Shown here: piece after piece, positions 1 through 41,892 of the stretch
Layout of the letters: every line of letters starts with the position of its first letter
Numbering within the stretch: the stretch's first letter is position 1
DNA from: Sporomusaceae bacterium
Lineage (GTDB): Bacteria; Bacillota; Negativicutes; Acidaminococcales; JAJUGR01
Length of the DNA stretch: 42,184 bases
Reading direction: 5' to 3'
NCBI GenBank assembly: GCA_029265905.1
Contig: JAJUGR010000021.1
Span: forward strand, 1 to 42,184
Made by a program: the position numbers and the translations under genes
Notes under the pieces: model-generated
Told to the model about the DNA's origin: nothing
The model's database searches: none
The model's input: only the letters and a program-made list of their open reading frames with translations

Positions 1-36
1 AATTGTCGATTCTAGGGTAATCTTGTATTGGGCCAT
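1..36 (-). CDS. IS256-type transposase, N-terminal fragment cut by the window edge
   Basis: The minus strand reads ATG at 36-34 and gives MAQYKITLESTI before the window ends. A GGAGG lies at the right distance upstream. This N-terminus resembles IS256-family transposases as I remember them, which commonly begin MAQY-I/L-T. Only 12 residues are visible, so the family call rests on this short match plus the candidate element end at 112-138. The DDE catalytic core would lie outside the window. Confidence 0.5.
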   Translation of the reverse strand, partial: MAQYKITLESTI

Positions 37-111
37 GCTCTTTTACCTCCGGTTCTGTAATGTTGGGGTAGCAACTACATTCTACCGGATTTTAGAGCCT
101 GGCCCTATTCC

Positions 112-32752: not shown

Positions 32753-34387
32753 ATGGACAAAATCAATGTGCGTTTTGACGACGGCACGGTGCGGCAATAC
32801 GACAAAGGAACAACCCTGCTGACCATCAGCCGCGATGTGGCAGCCTCGTTTTGCTCGCCGATTGTCGCCGTTCAGGTGAACAATGAAATCAAGCATCTGC
32901 AGCATCAAATCACGACCGATTGTTCCGTAAGCTTTTCCGACATGAGCACGTCGCTGGGAATGAAGGTTTACCAGCGCAGCCTGATCTTCGTCATGCTGAT
33001 TGCCGCCCACGAGCTGTTCCCAACCGGCCAGCTGTTCGTCGAACATTCGCTGGGCAAAGGCCTGTATTGCGAACTGCGGTTAGGGCGCCCCCTGACAAGC
33101 ACTGACATCAGCGCCCTGCAAGAGCGCATGCGCCAAATCGCAGCGGAAAAACGGCCGATCGAAAAGCGCGTTCTCCCGGCCGACGAAGCCGTCTGCCTAT
33201 TCCGCACCACCGGCCAAGAAACAAAAGCCAAACTGATTGAACAGCTAAAGAAAAAGCTCGTCACCATCTACTGCTGCGGCGACTATTGCAATTATTTTTA
33301 CCGCACGCTAGTGCCGGACACAAGCTACCTGACGCTGTTTGAGCTGCGCTTTTATCCGCCTGGCTTTGTCTTGCGCTACCCGCTGCCAGACGCGCCCGCC
33401 TCGCTCCCGTCCTTCGTCGACGTGCCGAAGCTCGCGGAAATTTTTCTGGAAGCGGAACGCTGGGCGGAACTAATCGGCTGCGACTATATCCCCAGCCTCA
33501 ACGAACGGATCGCCGCGGGCGAGATCAACGACATCGTCCGCATCTCGGAAGCGCTGCACGAAAAAAAGCTCGCCCAGATCGCCGACTACATTACAGCGCG
33601 GCGGGACACCCTGCGCATCGTCGTTGTCGCCGGACCTTCCAGTTCCGGCAAAACCACCTTCGTGCAGCGCCTGGGCGTCCAACTGCACGTCAACGGCCTC
33701 GTGCCGCTGGCCGTTTCGATGGACGACTATTTTTTCGACCGCGACGAAATCACCGCGACCGACCTGGAATCGATCGACATTGTCGACCTCGACTTGCTGA
33801 ATCGGCACCTGGCCCAGCTTCTGAACGGGGAAGCGGTGGAGCTGCCGCGTTTCAATTTCCACACCGGCGACCGCGAGTTCACCGGCAAAAAGGTGCAGCT
33901 AAAAAGGGGGCACGTACTGCTCGTCGAGGGCATCCACGGCCTGAACGTGCGGGTGGCGCAAAATATTCCGCGCGAAAACAAGGTGAAAATATACATCAAT
34001 GCCCTCACGCAGCTCGCCATCGACCAGCACAACCGCATCCCCACGACCGACGCCCGGCTGATCCGGCGCCTCGTGCGCGACAGCCAGTTCCGCTCCCACA
34101 GCGCGGCGGAGACGCTGCGCATGTGGGCCTCCGTCCTGCACGGCGAAGAGGGCAATATCTTCCCCTTCGGCGAAGAAGCCGATCTGATGTTCAACTCGGC
34201 CCTGCTCTATGAGCAGACCGTTTTGAAAAAATACGCCATCCCCCTGCTGCGCGCCGTCCCGCCCGACCAACCGGAGTACAGCGAGGCGCGCCGGCTTATC
34301 CGCCTGCTGGGCTTCTTTTACGAAGCCCCTGACGACATTGAAATCCCCTTCAACTCCATCTTGCGCGAATTCATCGGCAAATCCTAG
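32753..34387 (+). CDS. Nucleoside kinase-like protein: TGS + ThrRS-like + uridine-kinase domains
   Basis: A 544-residue fusion known in Firmicutes. A TGS-like N-terminus (about 1-65) and a segment resembling the threonyl-tRNA synthetase editing region (about 70-240) precede a phosphoribulokinase/uridine-kinase domain. The P-loop is GPSSSGKTT at 294-302, followed by SMDDYFFDRDE. The kinase may phosphorylate uridine or another nucleoside; the role of the N-terminal half is unknown. AGGAG lies ten bases before the ATG. It diverges from the PanE-like gene across 190 bases in which I see no convincing promoter. Confidence 0.85.
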   Translation: MDKINVRFDDGTVRQYDKGTTLLTISRDVAASFCSPIVAVQVNNEIKHLQHQITTDCSVSFSDMSTSLGMKVYQRSLIFVMLIAAHELFPTGQLFVEHSLGKGLYCELRLGRPLTSTDISALQERMRQIAAEKRPIEKRVLPADEAVCLFRTTGQETKAKLIEQLKKKLVTIYCCGDYCNYFYRTLVPDTSYLTLFELRFYPPGFVLRYPLPDAPASLPSFVDVPKLAEIFLEAERWAELIGCDYIPSLNERIAAGEINDIVRISEALHEKKLAQIADYITARRDTLRIVVVAGPSSSGKTTFVQRLGVQLHVNGLVPLAVSMDDYFFDRDEITATDLESIDIVDLDLLNRHLAQLLNGEAVELPRFNFHTGDREFTGKKVQLKRGHVLLVEGIHGLNVRVAQNIPRENKVKIYINALTQLAIDQHNRIPTTDARLIRRLVRDSQFRSHSAAETLRMWASVLHGEEGNIFPFGEEADLMFNSALLYEQTVLKKYAIPLLRAVPPDQPEYSEARRLIRLLGFFYEAPDDIEIPFNSILREFIGKS

Positions 34388-34468: not shown

Positions 34469-35653
34469 TTAAATGGCGTTTTTCTCGCGCAAGGCGGCGA
34501 TTTCCGCGTCGCTCAGGCCAAGAAGCTCCTTCAGAAGCTCATCCGTATGCTGGCCGAGCAGCGGGGCCGGCCTATCAACCGAACCCGGAGTGGCGGAAAA
34601 CTTGATCGGCACGCCAGGCATGTGCAGCGGGCCGGCCACCGGATGGTCAACTTCGACGATCATTTCTCTGGCCTTGATCTGCGGATCGTTGACGATCTTA
34701 TCAACCGTATTGATCGGCGCGCAGGGCACGCCGGCTTCCTCGAGCTCGCTCAGCCAAGCGTCAATTGTTTTGGTTTTGAACGTTTCGTCCAAAATCGCCT
34801 TCAGCGCCCGGCAGTTTTTCGTTCTGTTCAGGTTGTTGTTGAAGCGTTCGTCGGCAATCAGGTCCGCATGGCCAAGCAGGTTGCAGAGCTTTTCCCACAG
34901 GCGGTCATTGCCGGCGCCCACGATAACGTGCCCGTCGCTGGCGGTGAAGGATTCAAACGGCGTGATCGACGGATGGCGGTTGCCAAGCGGCTTCGGCACG
35001 ACGCCGTTGACGAAGTAGCGGGAGATGGCGTTTTCCAGCACAGCCACCTGGCAGTCGAGCATCGCCACATCGACCTTCTGTCCTTCGCCAGTCGCTTCGC
35101 GGTGATGAAGCGCCATCATGATGCCGATCGTCGTAAACAAACCGGCAATGATGTCGCCGACCGAAGCGCCGACCCGCGTCGGTTCGCCGTCTTCGGCGCC
35201 CGTGATGCTCATAATGCCGCCCATGGCTTGCACGATGATGTCATAGGCCGGTTTCAGCATATAGGGGCCCGAATGGCCGAAGCCGGAGCAAGCGGCGTAA
35301 ATCAGCTTCGGGTTGATTTCCTTTAATTCATCGTAGCCGAGGCCGAATTTCTCCATCGTCCCGGGACGATAGTTTTCCAGCACGACGTCAGCCTTTTTCA
35401 CCATTTCTTTGAACAGGTCTTTGGCTGCTTGCTCTTTGAGATTCAAGGTCATCGAACGTTTGTTGCGGTTCAAGCTCATGAAGTAAGCGCTTTCTTTGCC
35501 GACAAACGGGCCGAACGCGCGCGAATCGTCGCCCACTTCCGGCGGCTCGATCTTGACGATATCCGCACCGTAGTCAGCCAGCATCATCGCGGCGTACGGC
35601 CCCGCCAACACGCGGCTCAAATCGAGCACTTTCAATCCTGCTAATGGTTTCAT
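34469..35653 (-). CDS. Family III (CaiB/BaiF) CoA-transferase
   Basis: A 394-residue protein of the CaiB/BaiF family: VLDLSRVLAGPYAAMMLADYGADIVKIE at the start and the catalytic Asp in VGDIIAG (Asp167). It moves CoA between carboxylic acids. Next to citDEF-like genes, a citramalyl- or citryl-CoA, mesaconyl-CoA or similar substrate is plausible, but sequence does not settle it. It follows hutP across 154 bases holding a strong terminator, so read-through from the hutP promoter would need antitermination. No convincing promoter of its own is seen. Confidence 0.9.
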   Translation of the reverse strand: MKPLAGLKVLDLSRVLAGPYAAMMLADYGADIVKIEPPEVGDDSRAFGPFVGKESAYFMSLNRNKRSMTLNLKEQAAKDLFKEMVKKADVVLENYRPGTMEKFGLGYDELKEINPKLIYAACSGFGHSGPYMLKPAYDIIVQAMGGIMSITGAEDGEPTRVGASVGDIIAGLFTTIGIMMALHHREATGEGQKVDVAMLDCQVAVLENAISRYFVNGVVPKPLGNRHPSITPFESFTASDGHVIVGAGNDRLWEKLCNLLGHADLIADERFNNNLNRTKNCRALKAILDETFKTKTIDAWLSELEEAGVPCAPINTVDKIVNDPQIKAREMIVEVDHPVAGPLHMPGVPIKFSATPGSVDRPAPLLGQHTDELLKELLGLSDAEIAALREKNAI

Positions 35654-35784: not shown

Positions 35785-35812
35785 CTCAATCACTCACTAT
35801 GCTATTACTAGT
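35775..35812 (-). promoter_or_regulatory. UAG-rich RNA segment overlapping the terminator (candidate HutP site)
   Basis: Four UAG triplets occur on the minus strand at 35810, 35804, 35799 and 35781, the first being the hutP stop codon, together with several GAG triplets. HutP binds UAG/NAG triplets. The spacing here is irregular rather than the regular four-base spacing described for Bacillus, so binding is a hypothesis. Confidence 0.4.
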
Positions 35813-36263
35813 CGCTGCCAAGATGCATGATCCCAAGCCCGGCCCGCTCGTGGCTGGTCAAGGGATGAATCCCCGATTCGCCGAACATGGCAACCGCAAT
35901 CCACTGCGCATCACGCACGATCGCGATTTTTACCGCGATGCTCACACCGCCGGAAACATTCACCATGATACTGCGCTTCGCCTCTTCCGTCGCGTGCAGC
36001 AAGGCATGGTAATTAGTCGCCGTCTTGGCAATCAAGCCCGCGCTCAACGCCGCACCGATGACAGCCTTTGTTGTCTTAAGCTGGCACTCCGGCAAAGCGA
36101 AGTTACCACCCACTTCCGTAACCACAAACTTGTATCCCTGCCCGGCAACGATCGCCTTAACCGCCTCTTCGTCCTCAATCGTACGCGTCAGCGCCAAAAA
36201 CATGGCTCCGGTTCCGACACTTCTTACACTATGGGCCATGAAATTGCAGCGGGGCTGAGTCAT
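35808..36263 (-). CDS. hutP: HutP-family RNA-binding antiterminator
   Basis: A 151-residue protein matching HutP. The metal/histidine-binding residues appear conserved: His86 and His90 in YHALLHATEEA, His138 in SHERAGLGIMHL. WIAVAMFGESG matches the hexamer-core strand. In Bacillus HutP binds L-histidine and Mg2+, then UAG repeats in the hut leader, to prevent termination. Here no hut genes flank it: upstream is citF, downstream a CoA-transferase behind a terminator. It has its own promoter. The true ligand could be histidine or something related to this pathway. GAGGG lies nine bases before ATG 36263. Confidence 0.87.
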   Translation of the reverse strand: MTQPRCNFMAHSVRSVGTGAMFLALTRTIEDEEAVKAIVAGQGYKFVVTEVGGNFALPECQLKTTKAVIGAALSAGLIAKTATNYHALLHATEEAKRSIMVNVSGGVSIAVKIAIVRDAQWIAVAMFGESGIHPLTSHERAGLGIMHLGSD

Positions 36264-37926: not shown

Positions 37927-38807
37927 TAACGCCCTCCTTGTTGTCCGCCGATCGCCGCGGCGTAAGCCAGTGCGCGCTCGGCCCGTTTCACAATCGGCCC
38001 GTCGATCATTTTTCCATCCAGGGCGATGACGCCGGAGTTATTGGCCAGCGCTTCTTCATACGCCGCCAAGATGCGCCTAGACTTTTCCAGTTCCGCTTCG
38101 CTTGGCGCATAAATCCCATGCACCAGCGGGATCTGCGACGGATGAATGACCGATTTCCCGTCAAAACCCAATTCCTTGCCCAACAGCGTTTCCGCGCAGA
38201 AGGCTTCTTCGTCATTGACGTCGGCAAACACGTTGTCCAAGGCCTGGATTTTCGCCGCCCGCGCAGACAAGAGCAGCTGGCTCTTGGCAAACAGAATTTC
38301 TTTGCCATCGCGACTGCGGGTGGCCTGCATATCGGCGGCAAAATCCTCGGCGCCGATCCCCATCGCCACCACACGCTTGCTGGCCTTCGCCAACTCATAG
38401 GAGTTGCGGATGCCAAGCGCCGTTTCGATCGTCAGGACAAACTTCACGCTGCCCAGTTCATAGCCGTAACGCGACTCAGCCTGCGTGACGAACTCGTCCA
38501 CGCGCTGAATATCCTCCACCTCCTCTGACTTGGGCAGGCGGAGAAAGTCCGGTTTCACGGACATCATCGCCTCCAGGTCGTCATAACCGAACGGGGTGCT
38601 GATGTGGTTGACCCGCACGCCCACCTCGCAGTTGTACTCGTTGTATTTCAGGGCGTTGCGCACCAAATCGCGGGCCGCATCTTTTTCATAGATGGACACG
38701 GCATCCTCGAGGTCGAACACCACGCTGTCGGCCCGATATAGATCAGCATTCAGCAGCATGCCGGGATTATTGCCTGGCATAAACAACATCGTTCTTCTGA
38801 GTTTCAT
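37926..38807 (-). CDS. citE: Citrate-lyase beta subunit-like acyl-CoA/ACP lyase
   Basis: A 293-residue HpcH/HpaI-fold lyase. LFMPGNNPGMLLNADLYRADSVVFDLEDAV, RVNHI, the metal Glu in TIETALG and Asp in GAEDFAADM, then GFDGKSVIHPSQI are all canonical. It cleaves citryl- or a related 3-hydroxy-acyl thioester to an oxoacid and acetyl thioester. Close relatives act on free CoA esters (malyl- and citramalyl-CoA lyases), so an ACP is not strictly needed. It overlaps citD by four bases (ATGA). Confidence 0.87.
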   Translation of the reverse strand: MKLRRTMLFMPGNNPGMLLNADLYRADSVVFDLEDAVSIYEKDAARDLVRNALKYNEYNCEVGVRVNHISTPFGYDDLEAMMSVKPDFLRLPKSEEVEDIQRVDEFVTQAESRYGYELGSVKFVLTIETALGIRNSYELAKASKRVVAMGIGAEDFAADMQATRSRDGKEILFAKSQLLLSARAAKIQALDNVFADVNDEEAFCAETLLGKELGFDGKSVIHPSQIPLVHGIYAPSEAELEKSRRILAAYEEALANNSGVIALDGKMIDGPIVKRAERALAYAAAIGGQQGGR

Positions 38808-39088
38808 TTTTCCACCTCGCTTGTCGCGCGGCGAACCACTGTTTCCAGGCGGGCGCGCAGGGCAAAGTCCAGCGCCCCCTTGTCCACCAGCGCCACCCGG
38901 CAGTCAGCCACGTTGTTTTCCGCCAGGACCGCCCGGACGGTTGCTTCAATCTGAGCGCCGAATTCTTTGCGCACCGGACTTGTCAGTTCAATGATAATGC
39001 CACTGCCGGCTTCCGCCGGCTCAATCGTGGCAAGCACGTCGTTCTTTTTTTCCATGCCGGCTTGCGCGCGTCTGACTACTGTCGCCAT
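38804..39088 (-). CDS. citD: Citrate-lyase gamma (acyl carrier) subunit-like, prosthetic-group serine replaced
   Basis: A 94-residue CitD homologue. The C-terminal DKGALDFALRARLETVV and central SPVRKEFGAQI leave no doubt about the family. In CitD the 2'-(5''-phosphoribosyl)-3'-dephospho-CoA group is attached to Ser14 of AGTLESGD. Here the segment reads AGMEKKND, with Lys at that place and no Ser close by. The codons read cleanly with no frameshift. So this subunit should not carry the group and may be only structural. ATG 39088 follows AAGGGGG; the longer frame is not supported. Confidence 0.83.
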   Translation of the reverse strand: MATVVRRAQAGMEKKNDVLATIEPAEAGSGIIIELTSPVRKEFGAQIEATVRAVLAENNVADCRVALVDKGALDFALRARLETVVRRATSEVEK

Positions 39089-39119: not shown

Positions 39120-39353
39120 CTAATCGCCCATTGACCAGCCGTTGACATACCCTTGTACAAAGCCGATCAGTCCCGTGATCGTGGCGGCGATAAAGGCCGG
39201 CTTGCCCAGCGTTTTCGTGACATTGACCGCCAGCGCGCCATTGGCCGTCACTACGCCATAAAACTGGACGGCGACAATAACCGTCCCCAGCGCCATAAAC
39301 AGCAACACGCCGATAACAAAGGCGTGGTTCAGAAGCTTCTTTACCAAATCCAT
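39120..39353 (-). CDS. Small two-helix membrane protein paired with the TRAP-type permease
   Basis: A 77-residue protein with two predicted membrane helices (about 10-33 and 48-68). GGAGGGGG precedes the ATG, and it lies 12 bases after the permease gene and 31 before citD. I recognise no family. Its position is where a TRAP small subunit (DctQ) would be, but DctQ has four helices and about 160 residues. It may be a miniature partner of the permease; this is inference. Confidence 0.75.
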   Translation of the reverse strand: MDLVKKLLNHAFVIGVLLFMALGTVIVAVQFYGVVTANGALAVNVTKTLGKPAFIAATITGLIGFVQGYVNGWSMGD

Positions 39354-39365
39354 GTCACCCCCTCC

Positions 39366-40721
39366 TTACACCGTCATAACCGGCAGCCAGCCGAGCGAAA
39401 TCAAGACGCCAATCACCAGAATCGGCACCACGTAATACACAATTAGCGGCACAAAGGTTTTCACTGGATCGACGTTGGCAATGCCGCAGGCAATGAAAAT
39501 CGGCGCCGCCCCGGGAGGCGAAGCCCCCTCCGTCGAGGAGAAAATCAAGATGACGGCAGCGGCAATCGCCGGATCGACGCCCGCGTACAGCAGCGCGGAA
39601 AACGAGACTGAGCCGATGGCGACGACGGTGGCCGTCGAGGTGAGCGGGCCGCCGACCACCGTGACCAAAATGCCGACCAGGATGATCGTCATCAGCGGCG
39701 ACAGGCTGAACGTCTGCAAAATCGCCATCATGTCTTTGGCCAGCCCCAGCTTCGTCATCACGTCGCCCGCCGCAAAGGCGAAAAACAAGGTCGCCCCGAC
39801 GACGACGTAGCGTCTGGCGGAAGATTGGATCAGGTCATAAAAACCCGACGCCGTTTTCGGCAGATACCGCCATCCTTCCAGCAGAGCGATCCAACTGATC
39901 AGAACCGGAATCCAAACGATCATGGAAATGCTTTTCAGCCCTTTGGGCCCGAAGCTCTTGACCGCCGTCAGATAATCGGCCACCGGGCCGATCGTCAGCC
40001 CAACCGGAATCAAAATGCCGGCAAAAATCAACAGCGACGTCCAGCCCTCGCGCATCGTTTTTCCGAATGGCTTGATCATTTCCGCCGGCAGCGGCTGGAT
40101 GTTGTACTTGTGCACAAACCAGCGCACTAAAATCAGACGATACAGCAAGGTCCAGAGTCCCGCGGTCAGCAGCGCGACATACAACGCGCCGGTCGTTACC
40201 TTTTCCGCCACGACGCCCAGCCCTAAGATAAGAAACATCGATGAGCATGGCGGCAGCGCGATGCCCAAGCCGGCATTGCCGGCGACCATCGTCGCGCTTA
40301 ATTGCGCCGACCAGTTCGATTTCATCATCCAGGGGATGGTAACCGAACCGACCGACGCAGCATTGCCGGAGCCGGAGCCGGAAATCAAGCCCATCAACGC
40401 GCTGGCCAAGGTCGAGATGTACCCGGCACCGCCCGCAACCCGCCCGAGCGTCGAATTTAAAATATCAACCATGCGGTTGACCAGGCCGGTTTTGGTCATT
40501 ACGAACGCCATAAACACAAACGCCAAGGCGGCAAACACCGTTTCCTGGGTGGCGGCAAAAACAATGCTTTTTCCCATCAGCTCAAAGAAACGACCGCCGC
40601 CAAACAGCAGCACCACAATCCAGCCGGCAACCATCGCTTCGCCGATGTTGCGTTTCAACACCGAATTCCAAACAATAATAGCAGCAATATAGGCAACTAG
40701 CGCCCAGACACTAAGTCCCAT
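39366..40721 (-). CDS. TRAP-type (DctM-like) large permease, probably for an organic acid
   Basis: A 451-residue membrane protein with about eleven to twelve helices. The half-repeat segments SGSGSGNAASVGSVTIPWM and NAGLGIALPPCSSMF, then SSTEGASPPGAAPIF, resemble TRAP DctM/ion-transporter-superfamily permeases. As the first gene of the citDEF-like operon it probably imports the acid the lyase uses. No DctP binding protein is in the window. The start is ATG 40721 behind AAGGAGGAGGG; the longer frame is not supported. Confidence 0.75.
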   Translation of the reverse strand: MGLSVWALVAYIAAIIVWNSVLKRNIGEAMVAGWIVVLLFGGGRFFELMGKSIVFAATQETVFAALAFVFMAFVMTKTGLVNRMVDILNSTLGRVAGGAGYISTLASALMGLISGSGSGNAASVGSVTIPWMMKSNWSAQLSATMVAGNAGLGIALPPCSSMFLILGLGVVAEKVTTGALYVALLTAGLWTLLYRLILVRWFVHKYNIQPLPAEMIKPFGKTMREGWTSLLIFAGILIPVGLTIGPVADYLTAVKSFGPKGLKSISMIVWIPVLISWIALLEGWRYLPKTASGFYDLIQSSARRYVVVGATLFFAFAAGDVMTKLGLAKDMMAILQTFSLSPLMTIILVGILVTVVGGPLTSTATVVAIGSVSFSALLYAGVDPAIAAAVILIFSSTEGASPPGAAPIFIACGIANVDPVKTFVPLIVYYVVPILVIGVLISLGWLPVMTV

Positions 40722-40781
40722 TTGTATCCCTCCTCCTTCTGTCTTGTAGAAAGCAACCCTACTGAAACATGCTTCACCGCC

Positions 40782-40914: not shown

Positions 40915-41787
40915 TCATCCGAGCGCGCTATAATCAACCGTTTTCACAAATTCGACAAACAGCTTGACCAGGCGCAAATTCAACGTCTCCTGTTGATAAA
41001 TCATCGTCGTCCGCCGGGTAATCACTTGCCCATTTTTGTCCCGCAACGGAATTTGGCAGGTCGGCCCGATGTCCTGCAAGATCGTGGTCGGCAAGATCGC
41101 ATACCCCAGCCCGTTCGCCACCATCGCCTTGCAGATATCCATGTGGGCCACCGTCATGCTGATGCGCGGCGGCTGCGTGAAATGCCCGTTCCACCATTCG
41201 TCCAAAAAAGCCTTATATGAGGCGTCCGTATGATAATCGATCCGGGCCAGCTTGGGCAGATCAGACAAGGCAATTTCTTTTTTGGCGGCAATGCACAGCG
41301 GCTCCTCATGCAGCACATGCTTTTCATCCTGCCAGTTATAATCATTGCGGACAAAGCCGATATGAACCTCCTGGTTGTACACCAGCCGGCAGACGTCACG
41401 GCTCCAGGCGTTCGTGACATTAAACTCGACGTCCGGATATTGCCTTTTAAACAGCCCGAGCAAGGACGGCAGCTTGCATTTGGCGATATAGTCCGGCGCG
41501 GCAATGCGCAGCGTGCCGCCGATTTCGCCGGCCATGTTCAACGCCCGCTCCCTGACGCGGCGAATCTGCGCCAGGATCTCGCCGGCGCTCTCCGCAAGGT
41601 ATTCCCCTTCCGGGGTGAAATGAATCCCCCGGCTCCCCCGGACAATCATGCTGACGCCCAAATCCCGCTCGATATGGCGGATGCGCGCCGTCAGCGCCGG
41701 CTGCGAAATAAACAGCGCCTGCGCCGCCTTCGTGACGTTTTTCTGTTCGTACAAAACCGTAATGATCAGCCAGTCCCGCTCGTCCAT
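40915..41787 (-). CDS. LysR-family transcriptional regulator
   Basis: A 290-residue LysR protein: an N-terminal winged helix-turn-helix (about 5-62; NVTKAAQALFISQPALTARIRHIE) and a C-terminal effector-binding domain. ATG 41787 follows AAGGGG and gives the usual LysR start MDERDWLIITVLYE. The longer frame crosses a terminator and is not supported. It is encoded just upstream of and in line with the TRAP/citDEF operon, so it probably senses the imported acid. Confidence 0.88.
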   Translation of the reverse strand: MDERDWLIITVLYEQKNVTKAAQALFISQPALTARIRHIERDLGVSMIVRGSRGIHFTPEGEYLAESAGEILAQIRRVRERALNMAGEIGGTLRIAAPDYIAKCKLPSLLGLFKRQYPDVEFNVTNAWSRDVCRLVYNQEVHIGFVRNDYNWQDEKHVLHEEPLCIAAKKEIALSDLPKLARIDYHTDASYKAFLDEWWNGHFTQPPRISMTVAHMDICKAMVANGLGYAILPTTILQDIGPTCQIPLRDKNGQVITRRTTMIYQQETLNLRLVKLFVEFVKTVDYSALG

Positions 41788-41892
41788 GCGCCACCCCTTA
41801 TCAAGCAAGCTGCCATCTTGCAGCGACTCACTCATCTTCAACATGTTAATAGTACCGCGAGTTCCGCACCGCGCGCAAGAAGCGCCAACCGC

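Follow-up and report, generated by a model that had tools for sequence, protein, structure and literature searches.

Citrate lyase depends on a covalent CoA-like cofactor, and dedicated proteins make, attach and charge that cofactor. A 42,184-nucleotide stretch of DNA from a Sporomusaceae bacterium (contig JAJUGR010000021.1; this whole stretch is called the window below) contains a citDEF operon in which the carrier subunit, CitD, has lysine where the cofactor-bearing serine is expected. How could a citrate-lyase-type complex work with such a subunit, and is this lysine peculiar to one genome?

A citDEF operon with lysine at the cofactor position

The citD-like reading frame begins with ATG behind a Shine-Dalgarno sequence (AAGGGGG), its stop overlaps the start of citE (AATGA), and the citE/citF junction sequence is TTAATGATG. 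The product exceeded the thresholds set for NCBIfam citD TIGR01608 (68.2 bits, cut-off 63.5), PRK13253 (81.1, cut-off 65) and Pfam PF06857 (77.1, cut-off 25.1). No gap was needed to align the segment AGMEKKNDV with AGTLESGDV of E. coli CitD, and the cofactor serine that marks CitD of citrate lyase therefore corresponds to Lys15. These results confirmed the preliminary description of an intact gene with a good Shine-Dalgarno sequence, operon overlaps and lysine in place of serine. The Lys15 codon ends a run of seven A residues; a sequencing or frame error was ruled out by the intact frame and by the same lysine in relatives.

Features of the window around the Lys-type citD gene (positions within the window)
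Feature	Position	Strand	Evidence
Family III (CaiB/BaiF) CoA-transferase	34469..35653	-	profile match
HutP-family RNA-binding antiterminator homologue, downstream of citF	35808..36263	-	PF09021, 4.9e-31
citF alpha subunit, acyl/CoA transferase, 510 aa	36394..37926	-	TIGR01584 666.6, above cut-off 501.5
citE-like beta subunit, 293 aa	37926..38807	-	profile match; catalytic E34, D35, R65, E128, D155, D269 kept; I-H-P-S at 221-224
citD-like gamma subunit, Lys-type, 94 aa	38804..39088	-	intact ORF, Shine-Dalgarno, above TIGR01608 cut-off
Lys15 codon AAG, where cofactor-bearing serine expected	39044..39046	-	gapless alignment with E. coli CitD
Small membrane protein between permease and citD	39120..39353	-	no family match
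DctM-type large permease subunit, upstream, same direction	39366..40722	-	PF06808
LysR-type regulator	40915..41791	-	profile match

On the minus strand, the permease gene (DctM-type) is followed by the gene for the small membrane protein, then citD, citE and citF, and last the HutP-like and class III CoA-transferase genes; the LysR-type gene lies upstream. With citrate lyase (CitDEF, EC 4.1.3.6) and citramalate lyase, the window shares the citD-citE-citF order, homology over the full length of the subunits and the CitE catalytic residues; it differs in lacking the serine for the phosphoribosyl-dephospho-CoA group as well as citC, citX and citG in the operon, and genomes with only Lys-type CitD lack citC and citX altogether.

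A structure predicted for the window CitD (pLDDT 92) had its best match in MdcC, the carrier subunit of malonate decarboxylase (5VIT chain C; VIA-align Z 11.4, 2.1 Å, 87 residues). This match came from the fold search only, as a PDB sequence search with CitD returned no relative. The loop joining the first two predicted strands contains Lys15, at approximately the place of MdcC Ser25 as judged from the alignment range (residues 1..89 to 11..97). In malonate decarboxylase, a loop carries Ser25 at its tip, roughly 10 Å away from the 2'-OH of the CoA ribose as modelled in the transferase site; free malonyl-CoA can serve as a substrate of MdcD-MdcE (PMC5534430). Despite the shared predicted fold and loop, MdcC differs in that it carries its group on Ser25 and serves another reaction. 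Its partners are an MdcA-type transferase and MdcD-MdcE, whereas the partners in the window are CitF and CitE.

In the window CitE, the catalytic residues of malyl-CoA lyase, which are conserved superfamily-wide, are all retained. Its best family match was citE (346.9, below the equivalog cut-off of 443.4), not malyl-CoA lyase or RipC (168.9 against the RipC_Ccl cut-off of 375). With the lyases that act on free acyl-CoA (malyl-CoA lyase, CLYBL, RipC/Ccl), it shares catalytic residues, the I-H-P-x-Q motif and, as proposed below, the use of free CoA esters. Those enzymes are stand-alone, whereas this CitE is still accompanied by CitF and CitD, and its gene overlaps both citD and citF. Arg224 was present in 50 of 63 CitE proteins from Ser-type sets and kept in 1 of 19 from Lys-type sets, the loss being toward I-H-P-x-Q, the form seen in solved free-CoA lyases. 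As some Ser-type CitE also have I-H-P-x-Q and the L132/L137 lineage differs, the motif change is a correlate and not exclusive to Lys-type complexes. In CitF, convergent residues were found at positions 304 and 332.

Recurrence of lysine and loss of the loading genes

CitD was searched in 380 genomes of the class and in a collection of named genomes. Among 139 copies in which the cofactor site was read, 111 had Ser, 24 Lys, 2 Thr and 2 Pro. Lysine was found in Veillonella, Pectinatus cerevisiiphilus (two copies), a Megasphaera MAG, Phascolarctobacterium faecium, "Candidatus Formimonas warabiya", Oscillibacter sp. PC13, a Mediterraneibacter MAG (Lachnospiraceae) and two Zixibacteria-type genomes, a range that spans several phyla and includes common mouth bacteria. 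"Ca. Formimonas warabiya" encodes two citDEF sets, with CitD proteins 51 and 49% identical to that of the window. In the open literature that was searched, no account of a CitD lacking this serine came up; the recurrent Lys-type variant of citrate lyase is real and apparently undescribed.

A tree of CitE plus CitF, built by a quick method from 82 rows, required at least five changes between Ser and Lys, all forced by well-supported branches, and placed the window with Formimonas, Phascolarctobacterium and one further genome (G049). A single Ser-less clade was thereby ruled out. Residues K15 and D17 were invariant across the eight Lys-type CitD sequences aligned; given this invariance and recurrence in at least five lineages, Lys15 is more than chance. 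Lysine is evidently not strictly required at the site, since some Ser-less copies have Pro or Thr. For example, the CitD proteins of two related species (L186 and L201) match at 88 of 91 residues, and one has Lys (AAA) and the other Thr (ACA) at the site, so interconversion by a single base change does happen. Proline (TLEPND, TMEPSD) was seen in CitD of L189, L212 and L053/L092; L092 (JAAYAE010000343.1) has the same CitD as L053, which comes from a genome (G020) of the window's own order, and the operon layout at L053/L092 is like that of the window. A relative of the small membrane protein (34%) occupies the same position at L092.

Lys-type genes show signs of maintenance. Veillonella citD had a dN/dS of 0.02-0.15, indicating purifying selection, and one genus of the class has, in six genomes (G373, G374 and G376-G379; loci L156-L159, L161 and L162), an in-frame fusion of a Lys-type citD with citE that encodes about 414 residues. 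All Veillonella citD genes read were Lys-type, V. dispar's not being among them; in a study of that species, citrate lyase was among the functions with regulated genes (PMC10100942). By these marks the Lys-type citD is a working gene.

The preliminary description stressed that the operon lacks citC, citX and citG. That holds for the operon and fails for the genome, which is 2.42 Mb in 42 contigs (98.8% complete) and encodes CitX on contig C2 and both CitC and CitG on C7 and C14, all copies lying outside the window's contig. An absence of maturation genes from this genome is therefore ruled out. The genome has five citD genes, and the four others are all Ser-type and located in citDEF operons (L006, L007, L008 and L009), two of them on stretches with CitC and CitG, with CitX on another contig. 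Half of what had been named as evidence against the first reading was thus found: ordinary citD genes and the loading genes are present, the other half being that they serve the window's subunits. Because the maturation genes lie elsewhere, beside Ser-type citD copies, their absence from the operon is no argument for this genome, and the argument rests on genomes with only Lys-type CitD. Five separate citDEF sets in a 2.4-Mb genome is not the extreme, as some relatives reach eight citD copies. One Ser-type citD adjoins genes judged by eye from sequence to encode glutamate mutase, and it may belong to a citramalate lyase.

CitX was searched in all 380 class genomes plus 47 named genomes, CitG in the 380, and CitC in 60. 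Among 92 Negativicutes genomes, CitX was present in 67 of the 70 with a Ser copy (one of which, G377, was assigned from canonical operon context, its CitD not being read) and in 0 of the 22 without (Fisher P = 2.5e-18, a value that overstates independence because the genomes are related). The Ser-bearing exceptions were G021, G030 (63% complete) and G270, with a fourth outside the class in the MAG of L127. CitX was also missing from the Oscillibacter and the two Zixibacteria-type genomes, and it was present in every genome that combined a Lys, Pro or Thr copy with a Ser copy. CitC was found in 29 of 32 Ser-bearing genomes and in none of 22 Lys-only genomes (19 Negativicutes with CitD read, two Zixibacteria-type and one Oscillibacter). 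The one Thr-only genome (G085, 77% complete) does encode CitC. When the comparison of genomes was corrected for the tree, five independent contrasts remained, about four as expected and none opposite, which is too few for significance. Taken by itself, CitG does not mark the difference cleanly: a CitG-type gene, which may serve another enzyme, is present in one Lys-only genome (G032). The expectation of a Ser-less clade always lacking the loading genes was therefore borne out for the lack of CitX and CitC and for the wide occurrence of Ser-less CitD, but not for a single clade.

A lyase that may work on free CoA esters

In vitro, the separated subunits of citrate lyase can use free CoA esters (EC 2.8.3.10 and 4.1.3.34). 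We consider it probable that the Lys-type complexes are cofactor-free CitDEF enzymes of the citrate lyase type that use free CoA esters, with CitD as scaffold. Such a complex would have given up the covalent phosphoribosyl-dephospho-CoA group. CitF would exchange the acetate on free acetyl-CoA for a hydroxy-acid substrate, and CitE would cleave the hydroxyacyl-CoA so formed, which would release an oxo-acid and give back acetyl-CoA. CitD would hold CitE and CitF together. We infer both the use of free CoA and the substrate, which could be citrate, citramalate or a similar acid. Because lysine has been chosen repeatedly, and not assorted residues, it is suggested to do something: on the loop tip that would bear the cofactor, Lys15 would probably contact a phosphate of free CoA. 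The preliminary description had already proposed a free-CoA lyase, with CitD kept only as a structural piece; the absence of CitX from Ser-less genomes and of CitC from Lys-only genomes supports the free-CoA idea indirectly and in outline, but "only structural" is probably too weak in view of the recurrent lysine.

Four other explanations were weighed. The class III CoA-transferase could make the acyl-CoA that CitE splits, leaving CitF and CitD as scaffold only, which would be a special case of free-CoA use. A CaiB-family gene lies near citDEF in the window and at three other Lys-type loci (L096, L056 and L132), and these three also have a gene that is HMG-CoA-lyase-like by sequence. Both genes are found near only some Lys-type loci, however; no CaiB-family gene occurs near the Veillonella, Pectinatus or Formimonas loci, and CitF is kept in full, making this version unlikely. 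The permease type also varies among Lys-type loci, with DctM-, DASS- and TctA-type examples (the latter two judged by eye).

The presence of four Ser-type citD genes together with CitX, CitC and CitG in the window genome raises the question of whether the window complex borrows a loaded CitD from another operon, the Lys copy being a spare or an inhibitor. With Ser-type CitD and the loading enzymes both encoded, a mixed complex may form in this genome. As a general account, borrowing is quite unlikely, since the gene persists in Lys-only species that have neither CitX nor CitC, and strong selection maintains it in Veillonella.

It is more doubtful still that the lysine itself bears another covalent group, such as an amide-linked arm or an acyl group, with CitD remaining a carrier. 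Recurrence of lysine and not of random residues, and its invariance in the aligned set, would fit such a role. No dedicated modifying gene was recognized beside the operons examined, however, and the close pair of CitD proteins with Thr and Lys at the site argues against it. That a novel group on Lys15 amounts to an alternative acyl-carrier chemistry, replacing phosphoribosyl-dephospho-CoA on serine, is if anything a little less probable. Decay, or the lack of any enzyme role, would account for loss of a residue thought essential, and is scarcely credible given the low dN/dS of Veillonella citD, the retained catalytic residues, the natural CitD-CitE fusions and the regulation of citrate lyase genes in V. 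dispar (PMC10100942).

If common bacteria have repeatedly dropped the cofactor and kept the complex, as the free-CoA reading would have it, this would show how an enzyme with a swinging arm can return to using a diffusible coenzyme. Mechanism and substrate would then be in doubt for many genes annotated as "citrate lyase", those of Veillonella among them. The switch between Lys and Ser, with natural Thr and Pro variants, is directly testable by simple assays.

Other genes beside the operon

Two neighbors of the operon were observed in addition. HutP is known from histidine use, and here a homologue of that family is placed between citF and the CoA-transferase gene. Adjoining the operon on the opposite strand, a gene at 32753-34387 (+) combines a threonyl-tRNA-synthetase-like N-terminal part with a uridine-kinase-like C-terminal part.
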